56,006 bases of DNA from a virus, in the IMG/VR virus record IMGVR_UViG_3300038856_000078, positions 1 to 56,006 of that record; one strand, written 5' to 3'. This document shows, one piece after another, positions 10,209 through 30,184 of this stretch. The number at the start of each line of letters is the position of its first letter. Positions within the stretch are counted from its first letter, which is position 1. Below the pieces are notes generated by a model. The model had not been told where the DNA came from. It saw nothing but the letters and a program-made list of their open reading frames with translations, and did not search any database. The position numbers and the translations under genes are program-made.

Positions 10209-10456
10209 TGAATCTCAAAGAACAGCAAAGTTTACTTGTTATCGGCATGCTTCTCTGCCTATGGCTCTCGCTCGTCTCAGTAATGACCGTATGGACCGAC
10301 GCTGAAGTTGATTGGGTCGCGGCTAAGATGAAGGAGGAGCCCGTCGACATTCACTGGGGCTGGTCCGCTGCTATTGTGGTCCTGCCCGTTACTGCTCCCT
10401 TCGCCTTGCCTTTCAACATTGGCTGTGAAATCTACGCAGCATTTGAGGGAGAATGA
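10208..10456 (+). CDS. Small two-pass membrane protein
   Basis: 82 residues with hydrophobic helices at about 9-27 and 50-70 (IVVLPVTAPFALPFNIG), joined by an acidic loop. ATG shares a base with the previous stop (TAATG). Role unknown; inserted between MazG-like and polymerase genes. Confidence 0.65.
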   Translation: MNLKEQQSLLVIGMLLCLWLSLVSVMTVWTDAEVDWVAAKMKEEPVDIHWGWSAAIVVLPVTAPFALPFNIGCEIYAAFEGE

Positions 10457-12414
10457 CCTTTATCCAGCAACCTTACTTTCCTCCCACCTCCACATGGCGA
10501 CCCCCAATCCTCAAAGACCTTCCGAGATGGGAATCGCAACGCCGCGTAGGCCTCGACATCGAGACGTGCGACCCTCTCCTCACGAAGCTGGGGCCTGGGC
10601 CCAGACGAGATGGCCGTATAATCGGCATCTCGTTCTGCTTCGACTCGACTCGGGAGCCATATTACCTGCCCATTGACCACGCCTCGGGCGGTAACCTCCC
10701 GGCCCAGCATGTGTGGTCCTACCTGAAGGACCAGGCGGCGGAGTTCCGTGGCGAAATTGTGGGGGCGAACCTCCAGTATGACCTTGACTTCCTTGAGGAG
10801 GCTGGCCTGACGTGGCGTCCCGAGGTCCGCTTCCGAGACGTGCAGCTCGCGGACCCACTTATCTACGAGCTTCATATGTCGTACTCCCTGGAGAACATCG
10901 CCAAGCGGTGGGAGATTCCGGCCAAGGACGAGGGACGCCTTCGGGACGCGGCTGCCAGGTACGGGCTCGGCAACCACAAAAAAGAGATGTGGAAACTCCC
11001 GGCTCAATTTGTGGGAGAATACGCCGAGCATGACGCGTTGCTGCCGCTCCAACTCCTCGAGCTCCAAGAGAAGGAACTCGCATCGCAGGGCCTCGAGAGG
11101 GTGTGGGACCTCGAGACGGACTGCCTCCCCATTGCTCTCTCGATGCGGCGGCTCGGGGTGCGTATTGATTGGGACAAACTCAAAGAGATTGACGACTGGG
11201 CGTCGGGAATCGAGCGGTCCGAGATGGATAAGGTCCGGGCGTTGACTGGGGTAGAGGTTGGGTTCGGGGACACGTCGAAGTCCGTGCTGCTCGCCAAGTG
11301 TCTCGAGTCGATAGGGGTAGAGGTTCCGATAACGCCATCCACACAGAAGCCTTCGGTCAAGGCTGACTTCCTGCGTGCCAACCCCCATGATGTTACCAAC
11401 GCAATCCTCCGCGCCAAACAATTCGCTAAACTGCGAACTACGTTCTGCAAACAGGTCTGGGCGCAAAGAGTGGGGGACAGGGTTCATTGTACTTTCAACC
11501 AGTTGCGGACCCAGAAGCCGGGACAGGAAGAGTCCATGGGCGCGGCGTTCGGGCGGTGGTCCTCATCGGACTTCAACATCCAGAACCAGCCCATTCGCAA
11601 TCCTGAGTACGGCCAACTGTGGCGCTCAATCTTCATACCGGACGAGGGGAAGGAATGGTGTTGCTGCGATTTCTCAGCACAGGAGCCTCGTCTAACAGTC
11701 CACTTCGCCGCGCTCAACGGGCTGCCCGGAGCGCAGGCCATGGCGGACCGGTACTGCTCTGACCCGACCATTGACCCACACGCAGCCACTGCGGCCATGA
11801 TGTTCGAGGAGTGGGGGTCACTGGAGGAGGGTTCCACAGAGTACAAGGCTAAGCGCGAGCAGGGCAAGACACTGTTCCTCTCGTGGGTCTATGGTAAAGG
11901 CGCGGGGAAGATAGCCCGTGAACTGGGCTATGCTACGGAGTGGAAAGAATTTACTTCACGTAGGACGGGTGATGTGGTAAGATATGAGGCACCCGGCCCA
12001 GAAGGCCAGAAGTTTATAGACAAGTTTAACGCTCGAGTGCCCTTCGTGTCAATACTTTCTAAGGCGCTCAAGGAAATGGCCAAGACTCGTGGCTACGTCC
12101 AGACCATGTCGGGCCGGCGTTGCAGGTTTAGGATGTTTGGAGGAGAGAGGATAGAGACACACAAAGCCCTGAACCGCGTGGTGCAGGGGTCCGCGGGAGA
12201 TCAAATCAAGATGTCGCTGGTGGCGCTGTGGAAGGCAGGGATACATCCCCAGTTGACGGTACATGACGATCAAAGCTTATCCTTAAGTACGGAAGACGAG
12301 ATGCGAGAAGTAGGGCAAATAATGATTGATGCAGTTAAGCTCCGTGTGCCCTCGAAGCTTGATATTGAATACGGGCCTAACTGGGGCGAGTTGAAGAATC
12401 GAGTAGAACTATGA
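10453..12414 (+). CDS. polA: Family A DNA polymerase with 3'-5' exonuclease
   Basis: 653 residues. Exonuclease: DIET (D35, E37), NLQYD (106-110) and YAEHD (Y190, D194). Polymerase: motif A DFSAQEPRL from D406, motif B R-E-Q-G-K-T-L-F-L-S-W-V-Y-G (R468, K472, Y480), motif C HDD (604-606; HDE in E. coli). The residue equivalent to E. coli Phe762 is Leu476. There is no 5'-3' exonuclease domain, as in other phage PolA. It replicates the genome with the helicases and PrimPol-VapE primase in this window. Overlaps the upstream gene by ATGA. Confidence 0.96.
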   Translation: MTFIQQPYFPPTSTWRPPILKDLPRWESQRRVGLDIETCDPLLTKLGPGPRRDGRIIGISFCFDSTREPYYLPIDHASGGNLPAQHVWSYLKDQAAEFRGEIVGANLQYDLDFLEEAGLTWRPEVRFRDVQLADPLIYELHMSYSLENIAKRWEIPAKDEGRLRDAAARYGLGNHKKEMWKLPAQFVGEYAEHDALLPLQLLELQEKELASQGLERVWDLETDCLPIALSMRRLGVRIDWDKLKEIDDWASGIERSEMDKVRALTGVEVGFGDTSKSVLLAKCLESIGVEVPITPSTQKPSVKADFLRANPHDVTNAILRAKQFAKLRTTFCKQVWAQRVGDRVHCTFNQLRTQKPGQEESMGAAFGRWSSSDFNIQNQPIRNPEYGQLWRSIFIPDEGKEWCCCDFSAQEPRLTVHFAALNGLPGAQAMADRYCSDPTIDPHAATAAMMFEEWGSLEEGSTEYKAKREQGKTLFLSWVYGKGAGKIARELGYATEWKEFTSRRTGDVVRYEAPGPEGQKFIDKFNARVPFVSILSKALKEMAKTRGYVQTMSGRRCRFRMFGGERIETHKALNRVVQGSAGDQIKMSLVALWKAGIHPQLTVHDDQSLSLSTEDEMREVGQIMIDAVKLRVPSKLDIEYGPNWGELKNRVEL

Positions 12415-14217: not shown

Positions 14218-14434
14218 CGGCACAGAGACGGAAGCCGAGACCCTCAAGGCTGGCCGCGTTGCGGTGCATGCGGCATTGGGCGGTGAAGGCTACGTCTTAA
14301 CTGACGTGTCCAGCCTCAAGGTCTACTGCTGGATGAAGAAAAAAGGCGAAGCCGTGAAGCTTCGCCGTAGGTTGGAAGACGCGATTGACGCGGGGGAAGA
14401 CTTAGAGGCGCTTCTTTTTACTCCATCTCCTTAA
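14192..14434 (+). CDS. Hypothetical protein
   Basis: 80 residues from GTG 14192, preceded by GAGAGGTGA at a good distance; an in-frame TTG at 14165 is less supported. Starts with a strand-rich KILLTFPDGTETEAETLKAG and ends in a charged helix. Last gene of the rightward replication operon; its end overlaps the convergent minus-strand gene by 17 bases, with no terminator hairpin visible between them. Confidence 0.65.
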   Translation: MKILLTFPDGTETEAETLKAGRVAVHAALGGEGYVLTDVSSLKVYCWMKKKGEAVKLRRRLEDAIDAGEDLEALLFTPSP

Positions 14435-14807
14435 TCCATTGTACGATGTGCGTAGCTAACGTCATGTAGTCCTTGGTCTGTTGTTCGGTGGGGGGATTGT
14501 CTTCATAACTTCGAATACTTTCAAGGGTATCACAGCCGCTGCATGACCCATAGTCGACCTTTACGTACCAGTAGGTCGACGGCTGGTAGCCACCAGCGGC
14601 GATGACAAATAGTAGTGTGCCCTGATAGTCGCCGTCATCGATTACGTGGATTCGTTCTGGGTCAATAGAGCAATAGTCATCCTCATCCCTGATTACTGAG
14701 ACGACGTCCTTGACAATGGCTCTGTAGTCGTTGGGGTGCTCCTTGGAATACTTGTCGCGGAGGGTTTCCTTGTTGGCTTCCCACCTTTCGACGAACTCTT
14801 GGATCAT
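14418..14807 (-). CDS. Hypothetical protein
   Basis: 129 residues, acidic, helical N-terminus (MIQEFVERWEANKETLRDKY) then a strand/loop region with two cysteines (GSCSGC). No family recognised. Last gene of the leftward accessory operon; overlaps the rightward operon's end by 17 bases and its ATG overlaps the stop of the PEP-CTERM gene (ATGA). Confidence 0.7.
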   Translation of the reverse strand: MIQEFVERWEANKETLRDKYSKEHPNDYRAIVKDVVSVIRDEDDYCSIDPERIHVIDDGDYQGTLLFVIAAGGYQPSTYWYVKVDYGSCSGCDTLESIRSYEDNPPTEQQTKDYMTLATHIVQWIKEME

Positions 14808-15334
14808 GAGCGCCTCCTTCGAAGACCAAGAGCCCCCAGGCCCAGGCCCAGTAGAGCGAGGCTGCCGGGCTCGGGGGTGGGGATAGTGTCACCATTAGGG
14901 CGTACAATCAGGAACTCGTCAGTGCTTGCCCACGAGTCGCGACCACCCTTCGCGAAGAAGGTGCCAAGGACGGGTGACCTGTCGGTAAGGAAGCATACAG
15001 AGCTCTCGCAATCTTCGAATTCGAATTTGACGCCGAAGATATCGCCGCCACGAGTCTGAAACCACCTCGGACCCTCGAAGCTTTCTTGGCTTCGAATCGG
15101 AATGTCGCAGTCCTGTGTCACTTCGATAATCAAATGCGACAGCGCAGGGCGCTCCGCGCTTATCGAGTAACAGTACCGCCACAGCTCTCCCTCCTGCTGG
15201 ACGTTCCACGATATGGAAAAATTGTCCCATTCGTTGGTCGTAAGCTGGTTCGCTGAAAGGGAACCCGACAGGTCGATGAATGCTGCGTTCAGATTTACGG
15301 TGACGAAAAGGAGGGGAATTAGACATCGGGACAT
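14804..15334 (-). CDS. PEP-CTERM sorting-domain protein
   Basis: 176 residues. Signal peptide MSRCLIPLLFVTVNLNAA at the N-terminus, a strand-rich extracellular middle with four cysteines, and a textbook PEP-CTERM tail at residues 153-175: TPEPGSLALLGLGLGALGL then RRRR. In bacteria, exosortase (EpsH) recognises this tail and moves the protein to the outer surface or exopolysaccharide matrix. ATG 15334 has AGAAGG upstream; longer starts add an Arg-rich leader and are rejected. Phage carriage is unusual; it implies an exosortase-bearing Gram-negative host. Confidence 0.88.
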   Translation of the reverse strand: MSRCLIPLLFVTVNLNAAFIDLSGSLSANQLTTNEWDNFSISWNVQQEGELWRYCYSISAERPALSHLIIEVTQDCDIPIRSQESFEGPRWFQTRGGDIFGVKFEFEDCESSVCFLTDRSPVLGTFFAKGGRDSWASTDEFLIVRPNGDTIPTPEPGSLALLGLGLGALGLRRRRS

Positions 15335-15666
15335 GTTAAACCTTCTTCTTCTGCAAGGGTTTCGAGTTCGGATTTCCATTTAGCAGGGGTGCTGGTGTGG
15401 TCGTCGTGAATATCTTGTAGTGTAGAGAGGAATACTTCGTTTCCCAACTTCTTCTTGATGTCTGGGTATTTCCAAAAAAGCATCTCTACCCCTCCTCGGA
15501 ACTTCTGTCCGGGGTGCCCGTCGGGAATCAAGCAGCCCACGGCACACTTTCGGCCTTCCGAATCGAGGTAACTACAGGCTCCGTATTTCTCGTCGTATGC
15601 TCTCTCCTTCTGAGTCAAGAGGTGCTTGTAGACGCGGTTAAAGATACGCTGTTTCGACATTCCCAT
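15319..15666 (-). CDS. Conserved phage protein, CAVGCLI family (copy 1)
   Basis: 115 residues. Pattern: N-terminal helix RIFNRVYKHLLTQKERA, a cysteine cluster CSYLDSEGRKCAVGCLIPDG, then LQDIHDDH and a C-terminal helix ending EEEGL. The same layout recurs in the gene at 27969-28325, so these are paralogs of a family seen in many phages; function unknown. Overlaps its neighbours by 16 bases and by TAATG. Confidence 0.8.
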   Translation of the reverse strand: MGMSKQRIFNRVYKHLLTQKERAYDEKYGACSYLDSEGRKCAVGCLIPDGHPGQKFRGGVEMLFWKYPDIKKKLGNEVFLSTLQDIHDDHTSTPAKWKSELETLAEEEGLTCPDV

Positions 15667-17411
15667 TACGGCATCTCCCAGTTGCCCGGCTCGACCGTCG
15701 TGGTGCCGTCGGCGAAGCGATATCCTCGGTGAAATCCGTCTCCACTACGTCCGTCCCACTTGGCAGCCTGGCGGATAACCTGAGCCTTCCGCTGCTCGAA
15801 ATCCTCGCCGCCGCACTTGGGGCAAATGGCGGGAGGAATATTGGCTCCTGCTCCTCCGACATCGACCTTAGGGACGACGGCCGAGCAGTCCTTGCAGCTC
15901 GTCACGCGGGTCCAGTCGCCGAGCTCGAGCTGAGTGGGCGCGGTGTACCAGTCCTTGGCACCCTGCCAAATGTCGGTGGGGTTCGAGAGGGCGGAGAACA
16001 GGACGAACAGCGCGGCATACTTACCGAAAACCTTGGACTTAGACATAAAAGCTCCTTTCGTTACGTACGGGGCGTCACCAATACTTGTAATATAAGAAGG
16101 GTCGTCTTGTTTATGGCATTTTCCATTGCCGTCGTTGACCCACCAAACTCCTTTGTACTCCTTTGCTTCTGGATGTCTGAATACTGCTCCTACCGGCAAA
16201 TCTTTTGGTGACATTGGGGTCTCCTTCTGGGGGGTGTTAGAAAGTATTTCAATATCCATTCCGGGTTTAATACTACATTCAGCAGCGTTTACTCCATCTT
16301 CTCTTTCACCTTCTGTCCCACAGGCTTTTACTCTCCATACAATATCCGAACCACGATCTCTATCACCCCAGTATTCGGGCATTGTCAAGAAGCGAAACCG
16401 GTCGCCCGGTTTGAGTTTGGGCATGGGGGGCTCCTTTTGAGTTGGGGTTTCAGAATCAAGAATTTCGTAGGTGCAGCCCTCGACGGGCCAGAGAAAACCC
16501 GCCTGGCTTTCGTACCGGGCTTTCCCTTCTTCTCCCATAACAAATGGGATATCAAGACATGTGGGTCTAACACCGTAATCCTCGGGAAAAGTCAAAAAGC
16601 GAAACCGGTCGCCCGGTTTGAGTTTGGGCATGGAGTATTTCCGCCCCGGCTCGTAGTCCTGGCCGGTGGCAGCGCGGAAAGCTTGGCGTACATCCTGTGC
16701 AGTCTGCCAATGATCCATACGAGACTTGATAAGCTCCTGAATGCGCTTTTCTGCGGCTTCTCCTGATTTCTCCGCCTCTTGTCGTGCCTCAACCTCCTTC
16801 TTCCACTGCTTGCAGTTATAATTCAAGTCATGAAGCCTATCTGTGGCAACTGTCTGGAGACGCACAACGTCCTGCTCGGCCTTCTCGCGGGCGGCGCGTT
16901 CGGTGGCGAGCTGCTCTTTCCAAGCAAGCGCTGTCTTAATCGTAACGTCGCAAGTGTCCTGTCCCGCCCCTCCTGTGGCGTGTCTCTGGGCAAAGTCCTG
17001 AAGCTTATCCGCCCACTCTGAGTTGATCTTGAGGAGCCATTTTTGGGTTTCAGATAACCCTTCCTCGGGAGGACGCTCGACAATATACTTCTCGAGACTA
17101 TCGGTGTGGTCGTTGAACCAGTCAGGACTGGAATACGACCACCCTCGAATACCACAGGTTCCCCAGTACAAATAGTGCTTCTCTGGGTCATAGTACTTGG
17201 GCAGCTTGTACCTGTAGTCCCACTCCGTCGCGTCGAGTTCTGAGGGCGGGAGGCGTCCTATGATTGGGAAGCGCCTAAGCCTCGCAGGACCAATTTTGTC
17301 TCCTGGGTTTCGGAATTCCCTCCAGTGTTTTTCGTCTACTACAACAAAAGGGTCAAAATCCTTCACGTTCTGATGTCTGTTGCGAATGGTCCCCGGTGCG
17401 AGTTCTTTCAT
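15666..17411 (-). CDS. Mosaic protein: repeats, coiled coil, TM helix, zinc ribbon; nested starts
   Basis: 581 residues in one open frame. Order: N-terminal module (ELAPGTIR...IGRLPPSELD), coiled coil about 165-235, two near-identical modules beginning MPKLKPGDRFRFL at 261 and 330, a related module MSPKDLPVGAVF at 400, then from residue 456 an unrelated-looking unit MSKSKVFGKYAALFVLFSAL with a membrane helix and a C-x-x-C...C-x-x-C zinc ribbon (about 506-533). Strong Shine-Dalgarno sequences precede Met330, Met400 and Met456, so several shorter proteins may also be made. It looks like small genes joined in frame. Paralog at 20010-21350. Function unknown. Confidence 0.75.
   Translation of the reverse strand: MKELAPGTIRNRHQNVKDFDPFVVVDEKHWREFRNPGDKIGPARLRRFPIIGRLPPSELDATEWDYRYKLPKYYDPEKHYLYWGTCGIRGWSYSSPDWFNDHTDSLEKYIVERPPEEGLSETQKWLLKINSEWADKLQDFAQRHATGGAGQDTCDVTIKTALAWKEQLATERAAREKAEQDVVRLQTVATDRLHDLNYNCKQWKKEVEARQEAEKSGEAAEKRIQELIKSRMDHWQTAQDVRQAFRAATGQDYEPGRKYSMPKLKPGDRFRFLTFPEDYGVRPTCLDIPFVMGEEGKARYESQAGFLWPVEGCTYEILDSETPTQKEPPMPKLKPGDRFRFLTMPEYWGDRDRGSDIVWRVKACGTEGEREDGVNAAECSIKPGMDIEILSNTPQKETPMSPKDLPVGAVFRHPEAKEYKGVWWVNDGNGKCHKQDDPSYITSIGDAPYVTKGAFMSKSKVFGKYAALFVLFSALSNPTDIWQGAKDWYTAPTQLELGDWTRVTSCKDCSAVVPKVDVGGAGANIPPAICPKCGGEDFEQRKAQVIRQAAKWDGRSGDGFHRGYRFADGTTTVEPGNWEMP
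16044..16058 (-). promoter_or_regulatory. Internal ribosome-binding site and start (Met456)
   Basis: On the minus strand AAAGGAG is followed by CTTTT and ATG, an ideal translation start inside the 581-codon frame. It would yield a 126-residue protein with an N-terminal membrane helix and a zinc ribbon, a plausible stand-alone product. Confidence 0.65.
16212..16227 (-). promoter_or_regulatory. Internal ribosome-binding site and start (Met400)
   Basis: Minus-strand AAGGAG, spacer ACCCCA, ATG: a strong start inside the mosaic frame, at the first residue of the MSPKDLPVGAVF module. Confidence 0.6.
16390..16426 (-). repeat. 37-bp direct repeat, copy B
   Basis: Identical over 37 bp to 16597-16633 and encoding the MPKLKPGDRFRFL segment on the minus strand. 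Marks a recent tandem duplication inside the mosaic gene. Confidence 0.85.
16422..16437 (-). promoter_or_regulatory. Internal ribosome-binding site and start (Met330)
   Basis: Minus-strand AAAGGAG, spacer CCCCCC, ATG: a strong start at the second MPKLKPGDRFRFL copy. The first copy (Met261) lacks an equally good site. Confidence 0.6.
16597..16633 (-). repeat. 37-bp direct repeat, copy A
   Basis: Partner of 16390-16426, 207 bp away (69 codons, so in frame). The identity extends a few bases further with one mismatch. Confidence 0.85.
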
Positions 17412-18205
17412 TTCTCAATAAATCCTTTCTTGGAGTACCCCAGGCGCTCGGCCCAGGCTTTGAGGGGTGGAATCATTGCATCCCATGTTAGCACGTCAGG
17501 TCCCTTGTGTTTAGTCTTATTCCTGTGTGCTTTGCGGGCCGAGGAAAGGCCAGCAGGGCTAATCCCCCGCTTCCCGAAGTAGTCCAGCACCTTCATCTGG
17601 TCCGCGAGGCTCTCGATTCGCCACACTATCTCAGGTTTCATGACCGTCATGTTGAGCTCAAACTGCGTCAAGACGTCGCGCTGCAGGCCCAGTATTTCGT
17701 CAGGTCGGCGGTCCGGGGCTTTGGCGAAATAGTACCGAGAATTTACAAGGTCGACCGGGTGCCGCACAACTGTCAGGTAGCGAACCGGTGTTCCCTTTAT
17801 CGAGGAGAGCCACGGCGGCAAGCCTCCAGATACCTCAACGTCGTACTGAGTCCCAATCATGGAGCCGAAGTAGAAAATCCCGTCATAGGAGAAAACCTGC
17901 TCATGCCCAGCTCGAACGCCGCACTTCTTAAGGAAGTTAGTTGCATATGACGTGCCACCTTTATACAGACCAGAAACAAGCGTCACATACTCCGAGAGAT
18001 AGGATAGGACATTACTCCAAGTCTGGATTCGACGGTTGTCTGATATAGCTCGAAGCTTCAAGACGAGCTCTTTCGCAACCTCGAACTTCTCATCTGAGAT
18101 AGGTGGAGGGTTAGGGTTCTGCTCCGATTCAATCGTGAACGAATACCTTACGAAGTCCACGATTTCGGGGTCAGAACCCATGTCAACGCGGAAGACGTGA
18201 CTCAT
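17408..18205 (-). CDS. Sulfotransferase-fold protein (1)
   Basis: 265 residues. A P-loop-like PAPS-binding segment SGLYKGGTSYATNFLKKCG (about 78-96) is followed by GHEQVF and by VRHPVDLVNS (about 147-156), the arrangement of sulfotransferase 5'-phosphosulfate loop and 3'-phosphate-binding motif. It probably transfers sulfate to a carbohydrate or small molecule; substrate unknown. The ATG at 18205 has GAGGT upstream and just follows the methyltransferase stop; longer frames run into that gene. A second member lies at 34070-34777 and shares GHExVF and VRxPxDxxNS. Confidence 0.78.
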   Translation of the reverse strand: MSHVFRVDMGSDPEIVDFVRYSFTIESEQNPNPPPISDEKFEVAKELVLKLRAISDNRRIQTWSNVLSYLSEYVTLVSGLYKGGTSYATNFLKKCGVRAGHEQVFSYDGIFYFGSMIGTQYDVEVSGGLPPWLSSIKGTPVRYLTVVRHPVDLVNSRYYFAKAPDRRPDEILGLQRDVLTQFELNMTVMKPEIVWRIESLADQMKVLDYFGKRGISPAGLSSARKAHRNKTKHKGPDVLTWDAMIPPLKAWAERLGYSKKGFIEK

Positions 18206-18206
18206 T

Positions 18207-18722
18207 TCATACCTCGTTTCCATGCGCGTCCCACCCCTCCACGCGCTCTCTGGCGAAAAGTTCAATCTTCGAGGCTTTGGGGAACCAGATCTCAATCATT
18301 AGCCTAACAATATCGGGTTTCTTTGAGTGCATACCACGCGCCTCAGATAGAACAGAACTTGTACGCTTATCTGTAGGAGGAGGGCTAAACTTCCCATTCA
18401 CCCCGACCAGAAGCAGTTCGTGCTGACCGCGAAACCAATAACCCATCCCCATTATCTGTTTGTCCCACACCGCGTTGGTCTTGTAGGTGAAGCCCCAGGC
18501 TTTCATGACCTCCAGCGCCTCAGGGAGCTTCGGGGCTGTGGCCCAGAGGTAGAGGACAGCGTTGTCCTTGGCGGGTATCTCCATGTCGCAGATTTCCCGC
18601 AAGGACATGGTGGGGTACTGGTTCTCAATCTTGCGCGACTTCGACTTGGAGAAGGAGTATCTCCAGGGCGGATCTGCCAGAATAACATCATAAAGCTTGT
18701 CGGATATCTTCATAGTCCTCAA
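18207..18722 (-). CDS. MT-A70 family adenine methyltransferase
   Basis: 171 residues. Catalytic DPPW at 17-20 (LADPPWRY) and MT-A70 landmarks LYLWATAPKLPEALEVMKAW and GYWFRGQHELLL and the C-terminal KIELFARERVEGWDAHGNEV. It would make N6-methyladenine in phage (or host) DNA, most simply to evade host restriction. No cognate restriction endonuclease is adjacent. Followed by the sulfotransferase-fold gene. Confidence 0.92.
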   Translation of the reverse strand: MRTMKISDKLYDVILADPPWRYSFSKSKSRKIENQYPTMSLREICDMEIPAKDNAVLYLWATAPKLPEALEVMKAWGFTYKTNAVWDKQIMGMGYWFRGQHELLLVGVNGKFSPPPTDKRTSSVLSEARGMHSKKPDIVRLMIEIWFPKASKIELFARERVEGWDAHGNEV

Positions 18723-19888: not shown

Positions 19889-20010
19889 TCTTCCTCGTTA
19901 GTGTGTTCGGCCATTTCCCCGCAGTTTACACACGGGGACCAGTGGTCACGGCTTTCGTACGCCTCTGGCGCACCACAACAAGTACTGAGGTATTCGTAAT
20001 CAACTACCAT
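19885..20010 (-). CDS. 41-residue zinc-ribbon protein
   Basis: ATG 20010 shares bases with the TAA of the gene before it. Motifs CCGAPE and CVNCGEMAEH provide four cysteines and a histidine for one zinc. Common mini-ribbon type in phages; function unknown. Confidence 0.6.
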   Translation of the reverse strand: MVVDYEYLSTCCGAPEAYESRDHWSPCVNCGEMAEHTNEEE

Positions 20011-21350
20011 TAGTCCTCCTCCAGCACGAGTCGAGTACTGCCGTCCTCGTTGCGGAACTGGGTGCCGACCACGATGTCTGACAGCGGCCAGCCGCGGTTG
20101 CGGTAGAGAGGTGCCGCGACTCGCTTCTCAATATTCTCGGAGCCGCACTTGGGGCAAATGACCGAGTTCTCGTGCTCCATGAGTGTCTCACACTCGCCGC
20201 AGACCTTGGTCTTCTGGTAGTCGCCGTGGACCACTTCCCGCGAGCCCTTGAAGTAATCGACCGACGAGACGTACATGTCATTCAGCGGCAGGTGGCTAAA
20301 CAACGCTCCAGCAGCAACGAGGATAATCGTCTTCTTCATAAAACCAATTCCTTTCTTTTGAGGCTCCATGTTATACCAATCGACACCATAACACTTTTTT
20401 ACGTCTTCACAAACGTTGTCAAATAAATTCTTCCATTCGTTTCGCGTGTCTCGTGTCTTGTCTCTCTCCTTCTTAACCTCGGCCAATTCGTCCTGGTACC
20501 TGAGAATCTCCTCGTGAGGAGGCTGTAACCTGTTAATCAAGCTAAGTATGTCGTTACTATTATCCTCCATTCCATTCTTGCGGGCTGACCACCTGTAGTC
20601 CCCACTCTTCTGGACTATATCCCAACCGTTTACCTTGCAAATATGCCGGGCGTCTGCCTCTGCCTTGAAACTCACAGTTTTGTTCTCCATATCAACTTCC
20701 GAAACATAGGCCCATGGCTCCTCCGTGTAAATCTTGTCTCCTCGTGTAACCTCTACGCAAGCATTAATAGGCTCGTACTCCGTCGCCGTGTAGAGCTGGT
20801 CCAGAGGCACGCGGCCGAGGACTTCGATGTCGTCAGTTTCCTCTACCCACACCGCGGAAAGGTACGTTTCTCGACACTCGCAGAGAGCTTTGATGTAACG
20901 CTTCTTTTCACCCACAACACAGACAACAAGAGGTACACCAACGTCTACCTCCCAATACGGTCTCCGAATGTCGGCATGACGCGCTGGCCACGAACGAAAC
21001 GCCACGACCATTCCGGGGGTGAGGGGAGTACGAGAAGGCTTGTGACGAGGGTCTTCCCCATACATTGTTCTTGAAGCAAAAACCCATTTTGTTCCTTCCC
21101 ACCTGACGTCGAAAAATGCAGGGTCGTCGAGATACGCCTGAGGCAACTTATAGCACTCCTTCCACTCCTTCGCGTCGAGTTGGTCAGGGGGCAGGCGACC
21201 GATAACTTTCTTAGGCTTACACCCATCCCATTGCTTAGGTGGGATTCCTCCATATGTTCCGTTTGAATTCAGACTTATCGCGTTACCATTGGGTAGTATT
21301 ACCCACTTTGTGTCACCTGTTCCAGTGTAAATAGTCCCCGGCTCAAGCAT
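20010..21350 (-). CDS. Mosaic protein, paralog of the 15666-17411 gene
   Basis: 446 residues. N-terminal module LEPGTIYTGTGD and KVIGRLPPDQLDAKEW mirror the other mosaic gene (LAPGTIR, IGRLPPSELDATEW). Then LTPGMVVAFRSWP and related modules, a coiled coil about 280-320, and from Met338 a unit MKKTIILVAAGALFSHLP (membrane helix) with zinc ribbon C-G-E-C...C-P-K-C (384-402). ATG 21350 is chosen for its AAAGGAGAAAGATT leader; a strong Shine-Dalgarno also precedes Met338. First gene of the leftward accessory operon, directly behind a sigma70-type promoter. Confidence 0.8.
   Translation of the reverse strand: MLEPGTIYTGTGDTKWVILPNGNAISLNSNGTYGGIPPKQWDGCKPKKVIGRLPPDQLDAKEWKECYKLPQAYLDDPAFFDVRWEGTKWVFASRTMYGEDPRHKPSRTPLTPGMVVAFRSWPARHADIRRPYWEVDVGVPLVVCVVGEKKRYIKALCECRETYLSAVWVEETDDIEVLGRVPLDQLYTATEYEPINACVEVTRGDKIYTEEPWAYVSEVDMENKTVSFKAEADARHICKVNGWDIVQKSGDYRWSARKNGMEDNSNDILSLINRLQPPHEEILRYQDELAEVKKERDKTRDTRNEWKNLFDNVCEDVKKCYGVDWYNMEPQKKGIGFMKKTIILVAAGALFSHLPLNDMYVSSVDYFKGSREVVHGDYQKTKVCGECETLMEHENSVICPKCGSENIEKRVAAPLYRNRGWPLSDIVVGTQFRNEDGSTRLVLEED
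20337..20353 (-). promoter_or_regulatory. Internal ribosome-binding site and start (Met338)
   Basis: Minus-strand AAAGGAATTGGTTTT then ATG, within the mosaic gene. The product would be a 109-residue membrane-anchored zinc-ribbon protein whose N-terminus MKKTIILVAAGALF looks like a genuine signal anchor. Confidence 0.6.
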
Positions 21351-21384: not shown

Positions 21385-21412
21385 ATTGTAGCACTCACGC
21401 CCAGCAAGTCAA
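21385..21412 (-). promoter_or_regulatory. Sigma70-type promoter for leftward operon
   Basis: Minus strand: TTGACT (21412-21407), 16-base spacer, TGC-TACAAT extended -10 (21390-21385). Predicted start near 21377, about 27 bases upstream of ATG 21350. Drives the mosaic, zinc-ribbon, methyltransferase, sulfotransferase and PEP-CTERM genes. Confidence 0.75.
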
Positions 21413-23851: not shown

Positions 23852-24058
23852 TCACTGGCCCGGTTGCTTTTTTATCTTTTTGATTGCTTCTCCAAGCATT
23901 TCCAAATGAAATTCCATATTGTTTTCAGACAGGTAGGACTTAAGCGCTGAAAGCCGTACAAGGGCTTGCGGCGCAAAGTCAGGACTCTCTTCAACAAACC
24001 TCGGGTACACACAAATCATAGTATGAACGGCCCATTTAAGGGCGTCAGGAGTAGTCAT
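23852..24058 (-). CDS. Hypothetical helical protein
   Basis: 68 residues, all-helical, basic C-terminus (EAIKKIKKQPGQ). Its ATG (24058-24056) overlaps the ATG of the divergent plus-strand gene on a CATG tetranucleotide. GGAAGG lies upstream within that gene. The 95 bases downstream (23757-23851) hold no gene. Confidence 0.6.
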   Translation of the reverse strand: MTTPDALKWAVHTMICVYPRFVEESPDFAPQALVRLSALKSYLSENNMEFHLEMLGEAIKKIKKQPGQ

Positions 24059-24401
24059 GAGTAACCTTCCACCAAAACCTAAGCCTACTGACCCTGCGTG
24101 GGTACGCAAGGAAAAATGGCGCAAGAGGCGCGAGGCGCGAGAAGCCACGCGGATTTCCTCCGACCATGAGTTGAGCGGCGTGCGTCACAGACAGCCGCAC
24201 CGCGACAAGGGAATGAATGTGAGCTGGTCGGAGGGGCCGGACGGCGCGTTGCATGTCCGGCCCACGAGTATACCGGTTGCGACGGTGCGGGGATACGCGG
24301 TGTCGCAGGAGGATTGGGACGCAATTTTTACTCCCAAGTCCAAAGCTGACCCTCCTTCAGATGAACCTCAAGAAGATCCCGTTGATTGCGAGGAGCGTTA
24401 G
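24057..24401 (+). CDS. Hypothetical basic protein with WDxIF motif
   Basis: 114 residues; AGGAG six bases before ATG 24057. Basic helical N-terminus (KPTDPAWVRKEKWRKRREAR), then VSWSEGPDGALHVR and EDWDAIFTPKS, acidic tail. A short WDxIF segment recurs in the plus-strand frame at 25529. Wedged among minus-strand genes: its start overlaps a divergent start and its end overlaps the minus gene at 24328 by 74 bases. Confidence 0.6.
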   Translation: MSNLPPKPKPTDPAWVRKEKWRKRREAREATRISSDHELSGVRHRQPHRDKGMNVSWSEGPDGALHVRPTSIPVATVRGYAVSQEDWDAIFTPKSKADPPSDEPQEDPVDCEER

Positions 24402-24558
24402 GGAAGAGGCGACGAATCTCGCGGGTGCACATCCTACCTGAATTATCACTTCTCCACATCTTACCGTTCCATGTATATGTACCTTTTTTGAAAGCCGGCT
24501 TTTTAACATGCACGTCATATTCATTATTTTCTCGATCCCAACTAATCCAGATCTTCAT
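24328..24558 (-). CDS. Hypothetical basic protein
   Basis: 76 residues, strand-rich N-terminus (MKIWISWDRENNEYDVHVKK) and KKGTYTWNGKMWRSDNSG with a helical C-terminus. GGAG precedes ATG 24558, which is two bases from the divergent ATG at 24561. Unknown function. Confidence 0.6.
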   Translation of the reverse strand: MKIWISWDRENNEYDVHVKKPAFKKGTYTWNGKMWRSDNSGRMCTREIRRLFPNAPRNQRDLLEVHLKEGQLWTWE

Positions 24559-24560
24559 TA

Positions 24561-25022
24561 ATGGCTCCTAAGAAAATAGTTTACGCGGGTGAAATTAACA
24601 GCGCGCTGGTCGAGCGCGTGTGGAAAGGCAATTGGTCCGAGCTGATTCTGTGCTCGGACGGGGGGTGTACTTACTGCATGAGGGCTATTTGTGACTACCT
24701 CCTGGACAAGGAGAAGAAGGTTGTAGGGGTCGGGCAAATCATGTCGTCTGCGACGGCTATCCTTGCGTGCGGTACGCCTGCTCTGTGCTCGCCCAACTGT
24801 CGGTTCCTTGTTCATGCTTCTGACCTTTCGGAGGCGAGCGGCGGGATTCAAGAGATGCGGAACAATGCCGAGGAGTTGAAGGTTGAGGAGGCCTGGTACT
24901 TAGACGTCATGATGGCTCGGACGAAGTTGTCGCGTGAAGCGTGGGTTGACTTGATTCGTGAGGAGACTGTGTTTGGGGCGGCTATGGCGAAGTCGATTGG
25001 GTTGGTTGATTCAATTCTGTAG
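24561..25022 (+). CDS. ClpP-like serine protease (S14 fold)
   Basis: 153 residues. Matches the ClpP core: SELILCSDGGC strand, GVGQIMSSA with catalytic Ser62 (ClpP GQAAS), SPNCRFLVHASD with His85 (ClpP LPNSRVMIH), and a C-terminal LIREETVFGAAMAKSIGLVD like the ClpP tail. Phage ClpP-like proteins usually serve as prohead proteases beside portal and capsid genes; this one is far from them, alone on the plus strand in an accessory region. No clear Shine-Dalgarno precedes ATG 24561. Confidence 0.8.
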   Translation: MAPKKIVYAGEINSALVERVWKGNWSELILCSDGGCTYCMRAICDYLLDKEKKVVGVGQIMSSATAILACGTPALCSPNCRFLVHASDLSEASGGIQEMRNNAEELKVEEAWYLDVMMARTKLSREAWVDLIREETVFGAAMAKSIGLVDSIL

Positions 25023-25134
25023 GCTTAGCGTCCTGGTGTTCTTCACACACTGTGTACCCAAACCTCGGTTCTATCTGATTGTTTTTATACTGACCGCATA
25101 CACAACACGGTTTTTCACTTGGATGACCTATCAT
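24982..25134 (-). CDS. 50-residue zinc-binding protein
   Basis: ATG 25134 is preceded by GGAGAAAGC and lies within the end of the upstream gene (20-base overlap). Motif CCVCG and a later VCEEH supply zinc ligands; the tail is polar (QPTQSTSP). Overlaps the end of the ClpP-like gene on the opposite strand by 41 bases. Below usual length cut-offs. Confidence 0.5.
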   Translation of the reverse strand: MIGHPSEKPCCVCGQYKNNQIEPRFGYTVCEEHQDAKPTELNQPTQSTSP

Positions 25135-25351
25135 GCTTTCTCCAATTCCAAATCGTCAAAACGTTCAACACCCCGAGCACACACGACAGGCCCAGCAAGC
25201 TCCAATTCTCGAGGGCCACGGACTGATAGAGATAGGCGGCATTGCCCAAGAAGTTGGCCACGGCGTAGTGGATTGGTTTGCGGCGGGCCATGGACGCCGC
25301 GCCGTATATGAAGCAGAAATTTCCACACCATCCTACGGACTGGGCTATCAC
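25115..25351 (-). CDS. Small membrane protein resembling CBU_0592 family
   Basis: 78 residues from a GTG at 25351 that overlaps the previous TGA (GTGA). Three hydrophobic segments with QSVGWCGNFCFIYGA at the start, HYAVANFLGNAAYLYQSV in the middle and VLGVLNVLTIWNW near the end: spacing and the central N-x-x-G-x-x-x-Y motif resemble CBU_0592-type membrane proteins of bacteria and phages. Function unknown. Confidence 0.65.
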   Translation of the reverse strand: MIAQSVGWCGNFCFIYGAASMARRKPIHYAVANFLGNAAYLYQSVALENWSLLGLSCVLGVLNVLTIWNWRKHDRSSK

Positions 25352-25530
25352 TCCGGAGCCTCGAGCTGTGAGAGTTTCTCTTTGATTTCCGCAATCTCTC
25401 TTGTTAAATTACCTCTTACTATTGGGTAAACTTTTCCGGAAAGTTGAGTCATCCTTTCTTCCTCCGCAAGCTCAGCCTCAAGCCCAGCAAGCTTTACCTT
25501 CAACCTATTAATACGCCGTTGAGTGAACAT
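25348..25530 (-). CDS. Coiled-coil hypothetical protein
   Basis: 60 residues from ATG 25530 (GAAAGG upstream). Two amphipathic helices (RLKVKLAGLEAELAEEERM and TREIAEIKEKLSQLEAPE) give a helical hairpin. Its ATG overlaps the divergent ATG at 25529 on CATG. Next gene is GTGA-coupled. Confidence 0.6.
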   Translation of the reverse strand: MFTQRRINRLKVKLAGLEAELAEEERMTQLSGKVYPIVRGNLTREIAEIKEKLSQLEAPE

Positions 25531-25750
25531 GAAATACCTTTCAGGATTACCGTTTACAGTTTCAGTCGCGCCGCAAGGGGCCCATCCCAAGCGTGCTGAT
25601 TGGGACGAGATTTTCAACACTCGCAGTGCTGAACAAGTTCCCCACAAAGACGACACAGACCCTGCGACACGTACTCGTAGCCCTCGCGGTAAGCGTCGTC
25701 GTGAATGCAGTCAGGAGGAAGGAACGGACGCCAATCCTCCGCGTCCTTAG
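25529..25750 (+). CDS. Questionable small protein with WDxIF motif
   Basis: 73 residues (MKYLSGLPFTVSVAPQGAHP...DWDEIF). The DWDEIF segment recalls EDWDAIF of the gene at 24057. The second half is low-complexity and lies antisense to a better-supported minus-strand gene for 137 bases, so this may be a relic or a chance frame. The upstream GAGTGA is a weak ribosome-binding site. Confidence 0.35.
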   Translation: MKYLSGLPFTVSVAPQGAHPKRADWDEIFNTRSAEQVPHKDDTDPATRTRSPRGKRRRECSQEEGTDANPPRP

Positions 25751-25796
25751 CGCCCATGCGGAAATACTCCTGGCGGATTATGTAGCGGTCTCTCAT
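25614..25796 (-). CDS. Small Cys-rich C-terminal protein
   Basis: 60 residues; CGAGGAG lies upstream of ATG 25796, and the frame overlaps the previous stop (ATGA). C-terminal CRLCGELVQHCEC is a likely zinc site; the middle is Asp/Tyr-rich. The long upstream extension is out-of-frame shadow of the neighbour. Unknown function. Confidence 0.6.
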   Translation of the reverse strand: MRDRYIIRQEYFRMGAKDAEDWRPFLPPDCIHDDAYREGYEYVSQGLCRLCGELVQHCEC

Positions 25797-26083
25797 TGAC
25801 ACTCCTCGTGGTAGTAGTACTCGTCTCGGAGCACTGGGTTCGGGCCCAGACGTTCGTGGCAAGCAGCGCAGGTCTTGTGCCGGTTGTCGGAGTGTGGTCG
25901 GACGAATTGAAGCTCCACGCTGCAATCCGGAGGCTCCCCCTTGTATAAATCCACGCACCCCGCCTTGAACATGCGAGCGCACAATCTCGCCCAGGCCTCG
26001 TCGCGTGTCTCGGCCTGGATTACATAGGGCTCGGCGTGCTCGTCGTCTGTCCAGCTTACACAAAAACAGTAGTCAGAAATCAT
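25793..26083 (-). CDS. Hypothetical protein with zinc knuckle
   Basis: 96 residues. N-terminal strand-rich part (MISDYCFCVSWTDDEHAEPY) with a helix ETRDEAWARLCARMF, then CAACHERLGPNPVLRDEYYY ending HEECQ, a C-x-x-C...H-x-x-C zinc site. Seen in small phage early proteins; function unknown. Overlaps the PagL-like gene's end by 11 bases. Confidence 0.65.
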   Translation of the reverse strand: MISDYCFCVSWTDDEHAEPYVIQAETRDEAWARLCARMFKAGCVDLYKGEPPDCSVELQFVRPHSDNRHKTCAACHERLGPNPVLRDEYYYHEECQ

Positions 26084-26609
26084 AACTAACTCCTACAAAT
26101 ATTGCGCCGTTTTCGTGGCCCGTATTTTTGGTTGCCTTCGGAAGGCCGAAGAATTGGCGGGTTGAGTCACCGAAGAAGGTCATGCCGTTAGAGTGGTGAA
26201 AATAGCGGTAATCAAGGGAGATGGCGAGTCGAGGGGTTGCGCGCAGAGAGACACCTGCTCCGAGCTCTGTCGTGAAGGTATACCGCACGTCCGAGCCACG
26301 CCAACCTTGGGCAGTGCCCACTCCAAAGACGCCTATCATGTAGGGTGAAATCTTGCTCGGGTATCGGATTTTTACTGCGGTCTCCACGCCGTAGATTTCT
26401 CCATTGCCGCGAATCGTGGTCGGGCCGGCTTCGAGCTGGACTGCTGGGTGCAGGTTGGCGCCGAGTCGGGTCGAAGTCTTGAGTGCATTTATCGTGTTGA
26501 GATGCGGGCGGAGCGTGCTTTGTAGTCCCAGTTTTGGGTGCAGAACGCCGACTTCGGTGACAGAGTAGCAGGAGGATAGCAGCAATGGCAAGAGTAGTAA
26601 GGATTTCAT
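26073..26609 (-). CDS. PagL-like lipid A deacylase (outer-membrane lipoprotein)
   Basis: 178 residues. Signal peptide MKSLLLLPLLLSSC with lipobox cysteine near 14. The rest is an eight-strand-type beta barrel: alternating strands with aromatic girdles and a final strand AIFVGVSYDF ending in Phe, the outer-membrane insertion signature. YRYFHHSNG (H138, S140) matches the H-x-S-N active site of PagL/acyloxyacyl hydrolase enzymes, which remove an acyl chain from lipid A; E166 in TGHENG may be the third residue. A lipid anchor on a PagL barrel is odd. Likely remodels the host LPS. Confidence 0.72.
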   Translation of the reverse strand: MKSLLLLPLLLSSCYSVTEVGVLHPKLGLQSTLRPHLNTINALKTSTRLGANLHPAVQLEAGPTTIRGNGEIYGVETAVKIRYPSKISPYMIGVFGVGTAQGWRGSDVRYTFTTELGAGVSLRATPRLAISLDYRYFHHSNGMTFFGDSTRQFFGLPKATKNTGHENGAIFVGVSYDF

Positions 26610-26842
26610 TCAAGCAAAGACTCCAGGTTGTTAGAGGTTTGGATTTTGTGACTGGGGACGCCGAGTGACTGTGCCCACTCTCTTGTGTGCCGTATGGTGT
26701 TGGGGAGCGCGAGGGAGAGGTTGGCGGCGTAGAGGGTTGGTGGGATGAAGAGGGCTACGAGGTCTCCATTGGAGAACAAGGCACGGGTTTGGTTGGAGAA
26801 CTCGAGCTCATGTTTGTTGATGCCCAAGGGTGTGAGCTTCAT
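26606..26842 (-). CDS. Hypothetical protein
   Basis: 78 residues; overlaps both neighbours by ATGA. Contains a hydrophobic middle (GDLVALFIPPTLYAANLSLA) and a helical C-terminus. No family recognised. Upstream of the PagL-like gene in the same leftward set. Confidence 0.6.
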   Translation of the reverse strand: MKLTPLGINKHELEFSNQTRALFSNGDLVALFIPPTLYAANLSLALPNTIRHTREWAQSLGVPSHKIQTSNNLESLLE

Positions 26843-27009
26843 CCCGTGTAGCCTCGGTCCTTCAGGTCTTGTCCCAGCTGATCCAAGCGTCCAGCGAGGT
26901 AGTGTTTCCCAGCATCGTCCATCATGTCAGCAAACAAGGATATCGCCTTCATATATCCTTGGTCCTTAATGTAGTTGAGAATATCTCGGCGCAGTGTTGA
27001 ATGGTCCAT
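26839..27009 (-). CDS. Small helical protein
   Basis: 56 residues from ATG 27009 with AAAGGAG upstream; TAATG overlap with the gene before. Fully helical (LRRDILNYIKDQGYMKAISL). Function unknown. Confidence 0.6.
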   Translation of the reverse strand: MDHSTLRRDILNYIKDQGYMKAISLFADMMDDAGKHYLAGRLDQLGQDLKDRGYTG

Positions 27010-27215
27010 TAGTTCAGCTCCTTTGCGCAAGAGACCATGATTCGGGAGATTTGGAGGCGTTCCGAGGCGCGACGTTCGGCCTTCATGCGTGAGAGGGCCG
27101 TACGGGCGCTGTAGTGGGTGTAGAAGGCCCGCGCGAGGCGGGTGAGGGTGATAGTGCCCAGGAGGGCGAACGTGGCGTAGAGGCCAAGTATGAGGGTTGT
27201 GGAGATTTCTACCAT
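27009..27215 (-). CDS. Single-pass membrane protein with basic helix
   Basis: 68 residues. TM helix at about 6-28 (TTLILGLYATFALLGTITL), then a strongly basic helix (RMKAERRASERLQISRI). Starts inside the last bases of the upstream gene. Function unknown. Confidence 0.6.
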   Translation of the reverse strand: MVEISTTLILGLYATFALLGTITLTRLARAFYTHYSARTALSRMKAERRASERLQISRIMVSCAKELN

Positions 27216-27376
27216 GGTTTGTCGCTCCCAAGGTCGCGGACTCGGCGGATCGTATCGAGGTACTCTTCGAGTTCTGTGATGAGTGTTGACAATTCGGAAC
27301 CAGTGATTGAGGAAGGAGCCATGTCACACACATGCTGAGAGAGGAGCATGAGGTTGTCAAGGATTTTGTCGGTCAT
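27209..27376 (-). CDS. 55-residue helical protein
   Basis: ATG 27376 (AAAGGACT upstream) to TAG 27209. Helical: ILDNLMLLSQHVCDMA then ELSTLITELEEYLDTIRRVR. Overlaps the next gene's ATG by seven bases. No family recognised. Confidence 0.55.
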   Translation of the reverse strand: MTDKILDNLMLLSQHVCDMAPSSITGSELSTLITELEEYLDTIRRVRDLGSDKPW

Positions 27377-27378
27377 TT

Positions 27379-27615
27379 TTAGTCCTTTGGTTGAGGGTTG
27401 AAAAAGTGTACAGATTGTGGTATGATAGCGACGGTGCGGAATTTTCCGCCCACTTGGAGGCGAATATCTACAGAATCTACCTCGAGAATTTCGGGGATTT
27501 TTAGTTGACTGGTATATTTTATCGCGTCCGGCAGATTTGTAAAGTCTGGATTGCTTAGGGAAGCGTGCCCAGTTTTGCCGAATAGCCAGGACTGATAGTA
27601 GAGCCTATAAACCAT
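27379..27615 (-). CDS. Hypothetical protein
   Basis: 78 residues from ATG 27615, nine bases from the divergent plus-strand ATG at 27625. Strand-rich (MVYRLYYQSWLFGKTGHASL; VDIRLQVGGKFRTVAIIPQS). No Shine-Dalgarno is visible upstream, because that position lies in the divergent gene. Function unknown. Confidence 0.5.
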   Translation of the reverse strand: MVYRLYYQSWLFGKTGHASLSNPDFTNLPDAIKYTSQLKIPEILEVDSVDIRLQVGGKFRTVAIIPQSVHFFNPQPKD

Positions 27616-27624
27616 GGAGGAATC

Positions 27625-27924
27625 ATGCCGAAAGAAGTGAACTTGAGGAAGAGGAAAGAGGCTCGGGATAAAAGGCTGAAGGCTGGCCGGGAGAAGCTGC
27701 ATGAGGGGAGGCGCAAGAAGCGTAGGACGTCTGAGAAGTACATGCAGGCTGTCGTTGAGGAGATTGGTACTGACGCCGTTCGGGCGGTCGTCCAGAAGAT
27801 TCTGGAAGAGGCGCTTGACGGGAATCGTGACGCGTGGAATTTTCTGGGGCGCTTCATTTTGGGAAATGGAAAGATTAGTCTTTCAGACCTTGCGAGCCCT
27901 GGTATCCTCAAGCGTAAGGGGTAA
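27625..27924 (+). CDS. Possible small terminase-like/DNA-binding protein
   Basis: 99 residues; GGAGG before ATG 27625. A very basic N-terminus (LRKRKEARDKRLKAGREKLH) precedes AVRAVVQKILEEALDGNRDAWNFLGRFILG. Helix pairs around an A-L-x-G-x-R-x-A-W-x-F-L turn recall small terminase or phage DUF5681-like proteins. No other small-terminase candidate is seen beside terL, but the position on an isolated plus-strand unit makes this tentative. Confidence 0.5.
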   Translation: MPKEVNLRKRKEARDKRLKAGREKLHEGRRKKRRTSEKYMQAVVEEIGTDAVRAVVQKILEEALDGNRDAWNFLGRFILGNGKISLSDLASPGILKRKG

Positions 27925-27968
27925 GTGCTTCCAGTTTTTCCCGTGATAATCTCGCGTTGGGATTCCTC

Positions 27969-28325
27969 TCATTTGTCCTCCAATCCGTACTCCGCGGCGA
28001 GCTTGGTGAATTGTGCGGGCCATTCTTCGGGCTCGTGGAGGTCGTGGACGGCCTGGAGAGTCTTGAGAAGGGAGCGGTTGTCTTCTCCCAAACGAGTTGC
28101 GATGTCGGGGAAGACTTCGAAGAGATTGGGGACGCCGGTGTCGTTGGATGCGTTCTTTTCCCAAGGGGAGACTTTTTCGAGCTCTTGGGGTGTCAGAAGT
28201 ACGCCGACAGCGCAGTTTGTGTTGTTGGGTCCGGCGTAGAGGCATGAGCCGTGGCAACTCATGGACCTTTTGCCCTGGGCGAGGAGTTTGCGCTTTGAGG
28301 TGCTGAAGATTTCTTGAGGATTCAT
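27969..28325 (-). CDS. Conserved phage protein, CAVGxL family (copy 2)
   Basis: 118 residues, paralogous to the gene at 15319-15666: helix EIFSTSKRKLLAQGKRSM, cysteine cluster CHGSCLYAGPNNTNCAVGVL, then LLKTLQAVHDLHEPEEW and AAEYGL. Starts on ATGA overlap with the gene at 28322. A 44-base gap separates it from the convergent gene at 27625-27924. Function unknown. Confidence 0.8.
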   Translation of the reverse strand: MNPQEIFSTSKRKLLAQGKRSMSCHGSCLYAGPNNTNCAVGVLLTPQELEKVSPWEKNASNDTGVPNLFEVFPDIATRLGEDNRSLLKTLQAVHDLHEPEEWPAQFTKLAAEYGLEDK

Positions 28326-28750
28326 TGCTTTCTCACGATTCCGAGGGGGGTTTCTTCGTTTTCATGACGGAAAATGACGTCTCCGGGTTGAGGTTTGTAC
28401 GGAATTGCTCCTTTTTTGAGAAGTTCGAGTCTTCGCTCTTTTGGGTTGTTGTGCTGAAACGTGGTGATGATCTTGTCGCCCAGCTTCCAGACGGGGGCCT
28501 TGAGCTCCGGGCACGGGAGCCCGACGATAGTCAGCACTTTTCGTAGATCGTTCGGGATCTTGTTGCCCCTGCCTTTCTTGCTCGCCGTCTCAGGTTGTGA
28601 CCTCCTTCTGGACGTTAGCGCCCAGAATCCGTTCCCTCCGTCCGATATCTCTCGGTACGTCTCGAAGTAGTCGAGGAGGAACTTTTGTTCGTCTCTTGTT
28701 ACCTCGTAAATGGCGTCTTCACCGTGGTTGCTGAGCACTACGTAGAACAT
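28322..28750 (-). CDS. Hypothetical protein with PGDVIFRHE module
   Basis: 142 residues; GGAGACC precedes ATG 28750. N-terminal MFYVVLSNHGEDAIYEVTRD, basic middle, C-terminal KPQPGDVIFRHENEETPLGI that resembles the PG-x-x-F-R-x-P/H modules of the mosaic genes. First gene after the non-coding block to its right. Function unknown. Confidence 0.65.
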   Translation of the reverse strand: MFYVVLSNHGEDAIYEVTRDEQKFLLDYFETYREISDGGNGFWALTSRRRSQPETASKKGRGNKIPNDLRKVLTIVGLPCPELKAPVWKLGDKIITTFQHNNPKERRLELLKKGAIPYKPQPGDVIFRHENEETPLGIVRKQ

Positions 28751-28798
28751 TTTTGGTCTCCTAATGGGGGAAAATAAGTGGAATACCCCATTCTACCT

Positions 28799-28811
28799 GC
28801 AAATAATTTGC
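28799..28811. repeat. 13-bp palindrome
   Basis: GCAAAT-A-ATTTGC, perfect inverted repeat around a central A. Possible protein-binding site. Confidence 0.6.
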
Positions 28812-28812
28812 C

Positions 28813-28838
28813 GTCCCGTCTGCGATTTTAGGCGGGAC
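28813..28838. repeat. Inverted repeat, 9-bp arms
   Basis: GTCCCGTCT, eight-base loop, AGGCGGGAC: arms pair with one G-T. Could fold as a hairpin in RNA or ssDNA. Confidence 0.6.
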
Positions 28839-28841
28839 CGG
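28831..28841. repeat. GGCGGGACCGG direct repeat, copy 1
   Basis: 11 bp identical to 28994-29004; the two copies bracket the AT-rich core, as iterons or operator pairs might. Confidence 0.6.
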
Positions 28842-28927
28842 GTTAAGTGTTTAGGGGTACGGGGTTTACCCCAAATGGTCCCACTTGGGAGGTTTCGCCT
28901 ATATACGGCTATTCCCTTTAATGTATT

Positions 28928-28943
28928 ATAACTTATAAGTTAT
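28928..28943. repeat. 16-bp perfect palindrome in AT-rich core
   Basis: ATAACTTATAAGTTAT reads the same on both strands. It sits in the most AT-rich stretch of the non-coding block. Confidence 0.7.
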
Positions 28944-28993
28944 TCTTTAGGGGTTTTAAATAAACTAATAGAGAAAGAGAATTAGGCGGGTCA

Positions 28994-29004
28994 GGCGGGA
29001 CCGG
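28994..29004. repeat. GGCGGGACCGG direct repeat, copy 2
   Basis: Second copy; preceded by a partial TAGGCGGG at 28983-28990, giving one and a half tandem units. Confidence 0.6.
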
Positions 29005-29305: not shown

Positions 29306-29322
29306 TGTCAGATTTTCTGACA
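29306..29322. repeat. Perfect hairpin, 7-bp arms
   Basis: TGTCAGA-TTT-TCTGACA. Lies 16 bases left of the terminator; could be an operator or a processing site. Confidence 0.55.
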
Positions 29323-29337
29323 GTTATGGAGTTGGTG

Positions 29338-29369: not shown

Positions 29370-29379
29370 GAGCCACCAC

Positions 29380-29840: not shown

Positions 29841-29844
29841 ATGT

Positions 29845-30167: not shown

Positions 30168-30184
30168 TCGTCTTCTCCTCACTC

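Follow-up and report, generated by a model that had tools for sequence, protein, structure and literature searches.

Shine-Dalgarno start signals at the module boundaries of a phage gene, and a paralogue that shares its terminal join

Ribosomes generally initiate at an accessible AAGGAG that is followed after 5 or 6 nt by an ATG, and phage genes with internal starts include T7 gene 4A/4B and lambda C/Nu3. In-frame internal starts are likewise established for phiX174 A/A* and for pII/pX of the filamentous phage f1 (PMC6854812). In a survey of endolysin genes from phages of Gram-positive hosts, about half of those screened had predicted internal starts, several of which were verified; 15.2% of portal genes also had them, which provides a useful false-positive rate (PMC9430671). 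The phage gene described here, ORF A, resembles two-polypeptide endolysins such as Ms6 LysA of a mycobacteriophage and LysP7951 (PMC9430671), in that a ribosome binding site and start lie at a domain boundary inside one gene and a C-terminal module could be made in excess. Unlike these endolysins, A has three candidate starts rather than one, is known from sequence, and returned no lytic (peptidoglycan-cutting) domain in Pfam and PHROG searches. In phiX174 A/A* and pII/pX (PMC6854812) an internal start likewise gives a C-terminal product in the same frame, as the candidate starts of A would; those are replication proteins, whereas A is without such a domain and has more than one candidate start. 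What is proposed for A, a small C-terminal domain translated separately inside a long gene, is also described for the large and small Rpn genes-within-genes (PMC10327210), and Cas11b is such a domain made by internal in-frame translation (PMC11899642). Both differ from A in belonging to cellular defence, in their unrelated sequence, and in their single internal start. A preliminary description of this DNA had called the nested design rarely described in phages, a view that the phiX174, f1 (PMC6854812) and endolysin (PMC9430671) cases contradict. If the starts of A are used, the novelty would be the stacking of three in one modular frame and the repetition of the arrangement in a paralogue.

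The window analyzed is the whole of a 56,006-base virus record, a single contig, in which 80 genes were called with a simple codon model. Its phage genes include those for a family A DNA polymerase, a VapE-like primase/helicase, a P22-like portal, a terminase, a ribonucleotide reductase and an MT-A70 methylase. When the primase, the DNA polymerase, the portal and gene 15319-15666 were used to search for a sister phage, only distant matches were obtained. Since the primase, polymerase and portal found no close relative, the phage is an isolated lineage, and the evidence on A therefore comes mostly from inside the window. In the phage collection, tblastn with A as the query gave no match, and A was found near none of the matches to its conserved neighbors. 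Homologues of A, of its paralogue B and of their single units were sought by tblastn in phages, by peptide and motif scans in IMG/VR, and in GTDB genomes, and nothing rose above chance in these collections, so that conservation of the joins can be assessed in paralogue B only. Within the window, no separate-gene copy of any A module was significant; gene 28322-28750 bears a weak resemblance to the N-terminal module (window-set E 0.27) and, at its end, to the end of B.

Table 1. Features of the two paralogues and of their operon. Positions refer to the window.
Feature	Coordinates	Strand	Remarks
ORF A, modular protein, 581 aa	15666..17411	-	no internal stop
N-terminal module of A, residues 1-117	17061..17411	-	motif IIGRLPPSELDATEW...YKLP common to B, 19/36 identical
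Helical, coiled-coil-like stretch of A, residues 118-260	16632..17060	-	from sequence; predicted helices, low confidence
Unit 2 of A, residues 261-329 (MPKLKPGDRFRFLT...TPTQKEPP)	16425..16631	-	first tandem-repeat copy
Unit 3 of A, residues 330-399	16215..16424	-	second tandem-repeat copy, 52% identical to unit 2 (protein); GC3 0.35
Unit 4 of A, residues 400-455 (MSPKDLPVGAVFRHPE...)	16047..16214	-	low GC3, 0.34
Unit 5 of A (zinc-ribbon tail), residues 456-581	15669..16046	-	lysines, hydrophobic stretch AALFVLFSAL, CxxC...CPKCG; GC3 0.75
AAGGAG, 6 nt before Met330 (ATG 16424-16422)	16431..16436	-	
AAGGAG, 6 nt before Met400 (ATG 16214-16212)	16221..16226	-	top internal start in rough initiation model
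AAAGGAG, 5 nt before Met456 (ATG 16046-16044)	16052..16058	-	join kept in B
Paralogue B, 446 aa, strong own Shine-Dalgarno sequence (AAAGGAG-AAAGATT-ATG)	20010..21350	-	N-terminal motif and zinc-ribbon tail as in A
AAAGGA, 9 nt before B Met338 (ATG 20339-20337)	20349..20354	-	join homologous to A Met456
Zinc-ribbon tail of B, residues 338-446, GC3 0.80	20013..20339	-	begins MKKTIILVAAGALFS
Promoter-like TTGACT-16-TACAAT, TG before second hexamer	21385..21412	-	ahead of B; consensus match only
Terminator-like hairpin and T run	14345..14366	-	end of minus-strand operon, after 14418; consensus match only

ORF A runs through a series of modules (Table 1) with coding-like codon usage over the whole frame, and its Met1 has a modest Shine-Dalgarno (SD) sequence, AAAGGA, 11 nt ahead of the ATG. 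The preliminary description was correct as to the coordinates and length of this stop-free frame, the SDs 5-6 nt before Met330, Met400 and Met456, and the nested lengths of 252, 182 and 126 residues. No unit of A could be assigned to a Pfam or PHROG family by an accepted match, and structure predictions for A and for the tail alignment were uninformative (pLDDT 38 and 49). A module of 69-70 residues has been duplicated in tandem to give units 2 and 3, whose first 68 nt share 85% DNA identity. The SD-bearing ends before Met330 (TPTQKEPP) and Met400 (TPQKETP) are homologous. The SDs of these two methionines are thus not independent, and the “independent loss of stop codons” previously suggested is not supported, since two of the three joins descend from one duplicated repeat.

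The three start signals have normal spacing and lie far from the gene ends: AAAAGGAG-CCCCCC-ATG at 16424 for Met330, AGAAGGAG-ACCCCA-ATG at 16214 for Met400, and GAAAGGAG-CTTTT-ATG at 16046 for Met456. When the anti-SD pairing energy is computed for all 299 internal in-frame ATGs of the phage, they rank 12, 8 and 12, respectively, above the background of internal methionines, while the five non-boundary methionines of A rank from 149 to 277. The modular make-up first described is supported, as is the placement of an SD and a methionine exactly at unit boundaries. Met261 is a further unit start, absent from that description, which begins the same repeat as Met330; it ranks 23, with a weaker SD-like GGGGCGG (-6.5 kcal/mol) and strong local folding. 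Duplexes of -7.7 kcal/mol or below occur at 3 of the 9 internal methionines in A versus 9 of 290 in the phage's other genes (Fisher p = 0.0036). On random assignment, 22% of trials yield some gene with three strong sites and about 2% yield three in a gene with so few methionines (all genes allowed for), so by itself the number of strong sites in A is unusual only to a moderate degree. More telling is where these sites lie, namely at unit boundaries: all five boundary methionines of A and B are among the best 24 of 299. If homologous joins are treated as a single event, three events remain (261; 330/400; 456/338), for which multiplication gives a value of about 0.0005; this is indicative only because the unit boundaries were partly suggested by the preliminary description.

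A rough initiation model, our own simplification, combines pairing, spacing and local folding and assumes a canonical anti-SD. Among 253 internal ATGs it places Met400 at rank 1, Met456 at 11 and Met330 at 13, and all three score above A's own Met1. By this rough measure about 69% of real starts are predicted to be weaker than Met400, 43% weaker than Met456 and 42% weaker than Met330. Met261 is buried in structure and ranks 218.

Paralogue B, which like the tandem duplication is absent from the preliminary description, provides the most useful new evidence. It lies about 2.6 kb upstream of A on the same strand, within the same putative operon. The two share the GRLPP..LDA.EW motif and the tail in the same order, each in one frame. 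At the homologous join, which reads GAAAGGAATTGGTTTTATG in B and GAAAGGAGCTTTTATG in A, the pattern GAAAGGA...G[C/G]TTTTATG is kept, while the aligned tails have about 26% protein identity. In B, Met338 has pairing rank 24 of 299, and the other methionines rank 88 or worse. Codon identity between A and B at the join was considered as a sign of selection at the DNA level and rejected, as 19 of 28 identical tail residues share codons generally.

Both genes belong to a minus-strand series in which several neighbors share an ATGA or TAATG overlap (as at 17408-17411, 15666 and 14804-14807), and SDs within the last codons of the upstream gene are common. Initiation within coding sequence is therefore plausible here. 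From these observations a model can be proposed in which A, one of the tightly overlapping genes of an accessory operon in an uncultivated phage, would have grown by tandem duplication of its module of about 70 residues and by in-frame joining of modules already equipped with start signals. Translation of the operon mRNA would most likely run from Met1 to give the 581-residue protein, and ribosomes would also enter at some internal starts, yielding C-terminal products. The Met456 product of 126 residues (109 from B Met338) would be a zinc-ribbon protein inserted in the membrane or anchored to it. Its output would exceed that of the full-length form, which would let this membrane tail work by itself or in an assembly with the longer protein. 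That A is a mosaic modular gene whose operon mRNA is probably entered at some internal starts too is, in our estimate, a shade under an even proposition. The chances are even that at least one internal start is used functionally, with Met456 (together with B Met338) or Met400 the likeliest. The fuller version of the model, in which the stacked starts deliver a graded nested set of 581, 252, 182 and 126 residues and B repeats the arrangement, is unlikely; it would amount to a “reverse polyprotein”. The corollary, equally unlikely as part of the same joint reading, is that stoichiometry would be set by the strength of the internal ribosome binding sites and not by proteolysis.

The chief alternative is that only the full-length modular repeat protein is made, the SD-like strings being fossil starts or by-products of Lys/Glu linkers with negligible initiation. 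This is quite conceivable, if somewhat short of an even chance, and codon choice speaks for it. In a recoding test that held the peptides fixed and drew codons from the phage's own usage, the probability of a synonymous SD at least as strong was 0.45 at Met330, 0.32 at Met400, 0.25 at Met456 and 0.23 at B Met338. Codon choice favoring an SD beyond what the peptide demands, a supporting sign and not a formal requirement, was not found in A: Lys-Glu or Lys-Gly ahead of the methionine, with the common codons AAG and GAG, suffices for strong SDs at the joins. As 25-45% of synonymous recodings give SDs this strong, codon-level selection on them is unsupported, and with no homologues in the collections either, the earlier suggestion that the start signals were retained under selection is likewise not supported. 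Sites of equal strength precede nine internal methionines in other, unrelated genes of the phage, and most of these show nothing that suggests a nested gene. In addition, Met330 and Met400 owe their SDs to one origin. The 15.2% of portal genes with predicted internal starts, presumed true negatives, point the same way (PMC9430671). Against a full-length product alone stand the placement of SD and methionine at the joins and their absence from A's other methionines, the survival of the terminal join in B at such low protein identity, and the general tendency of accessible sites of this kind to initiate.

Internal initiation, as preferred here, would have its most credible product in the zinc-ribbon tail from Met456. 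Both tails open with lysines and then a hydrophobic run, and the start of the B tail (MKKTIILVAAGALFS) resembles an N-terminus of the secretory or anchor type. The hydrophobic runs are short (11-15 residues), and their 19-residue means of 1.1-1.5 do not reach the 1.6 usually required of a membrane segment. Each tail has two CxxC-type knuckles (CKDC...CPKCG in A, CGEC...CPKCG in B) with aligned cysteines, spaced as in the CxxC...CPxCG of Pfam Zn_ribbon_8, DZR and the HypA zinc region. The best Pfam matches are HypA for A (16.5 bits against a curated cut-off of 28.9) and Zn_ribbon_NOB1 for B (17.5 against 24.9); all matches of the tails to zinc-ribbon families fall under the curated cut-offs, and neither tail is assigned to a family.

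The tails are also set apart by composition. Third-codon GC (GC3) jumps just past the join methionine, from 0.34 to 0.75 in A and from 0.49 to 0.80 in B, and the change points that fit best lie 10 and 14 codons past it, respectively. After correction for amino acids, units 3 and 4 of A have z values of -4.3 and -4.2 and its tail +3.0, while in B the coiled-coil part has -2.5 and the tail +4.0. Because GC3 flips at the join in both genes, the tail appears to be a unit with its own history. GC3 breaks also occur in genes 52960-54693, 1739-3202 and 10453-12414, and the strongest of those tested is that of B. The stand-alone, membrane-type zinc-ribbon tail of the preliminary description is credible, and both its join and its composition break recur in B. 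It could even be argued that in both paralogues selection acts on the tail as the actual gene, the upstream modules being recent, loosely constrained in-frame insertions and the long product incidental. The contrast in GC3 between the tails (high) and both units 3 and 4 and the end of B's upstream part (low) would fit, as would a tail that opens like a protein N-terminus. We consider this improbable: the shared motif and tail, in the same order and in one frame, indicate that the long frame has been kept, and Met1 of A has its own SD ahead of a frame that is coding-like throughout. An assembly or sequencing error that fused separate genes would fit a single metagenome-derived record, the only genome available for comparison, but is a very remote possibility, as errors at three joins would all have had to leave the frame open and coding, and B shows the same in-frame join independently, with no frameshift or stop seen.

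Should the internal starts be in use, small phage proteins such as the membrane-type zinc-ribbon protein considered here are overlooked by gene callers that take the longest frame, and stacking starts in one frame would set subunit ratios in a compact way. If they are idle, module duplication and Lys/Glu-rich linkers make strong idle signals, which calls for caution in internal-start prediction. The A/B pair is a built-in replicate for a simple laboratory test. Of all internal in-frame SD-ATG sites in the phage, the strongest is at codon 62 of gene 15319-15666 on the minus strand (CGAGGAGGGGTAGAGATG, -12.3 kcal/mol); it has no obvious nested unit and is a useful comparison for tests of internal starts.

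The promoter-like site ahead of B is a putative promoter for the minus-strand operon including A, judged by its sequence. Promoter-like sites number 7 in the region scanned against 4.3 expected, and terminator-like hairpins 10 against 7.5; both counts are near the shuffle expectation, so the support for the two sites in Table 1 comes from placement only. Internal promoters were rejected as a source of short products: two consensus matches lie in B (20731-20703 and 20641-20614) and none in A, and the total for the region is about the shuffle mean. In the operon of A, gene 14804-15334 (minus strand) encodes a protein that opens with a signal-like stretch and carries a sorting tail of the PEP-CTERM type (PF07589, E 3.8e-6), which is unusual in a phage and hints at a PEP-CTERM/exosortase host. 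There are also two further pairs of paralogues. The small minus-strand genes 15319-15666 (PHROG 17693) and 27969-28325 are 36% identical, and large phages of Pseudomonas and Sinorhizobium carry distant relatives. Genes 17408-18223 (minus strand) and 34070-34777 (plus strand) encode P-loop, sulfotransferase-like proteins that are 36% identical over 81 residues, with Pfam sulfotransferase matches under the cut-off. Elsewhere in the window, gene 52960-54693 (plus strand) contains an internal tandem DNA repeat (53437-53500 and 53527-53590, 83%) and has its sharp GC3 change near codon 139. Finally, the minus-strand region 23852-31676 is a cluster of many very small genes (35-142 residues), several of which have their SD in the end of the preceding gene.
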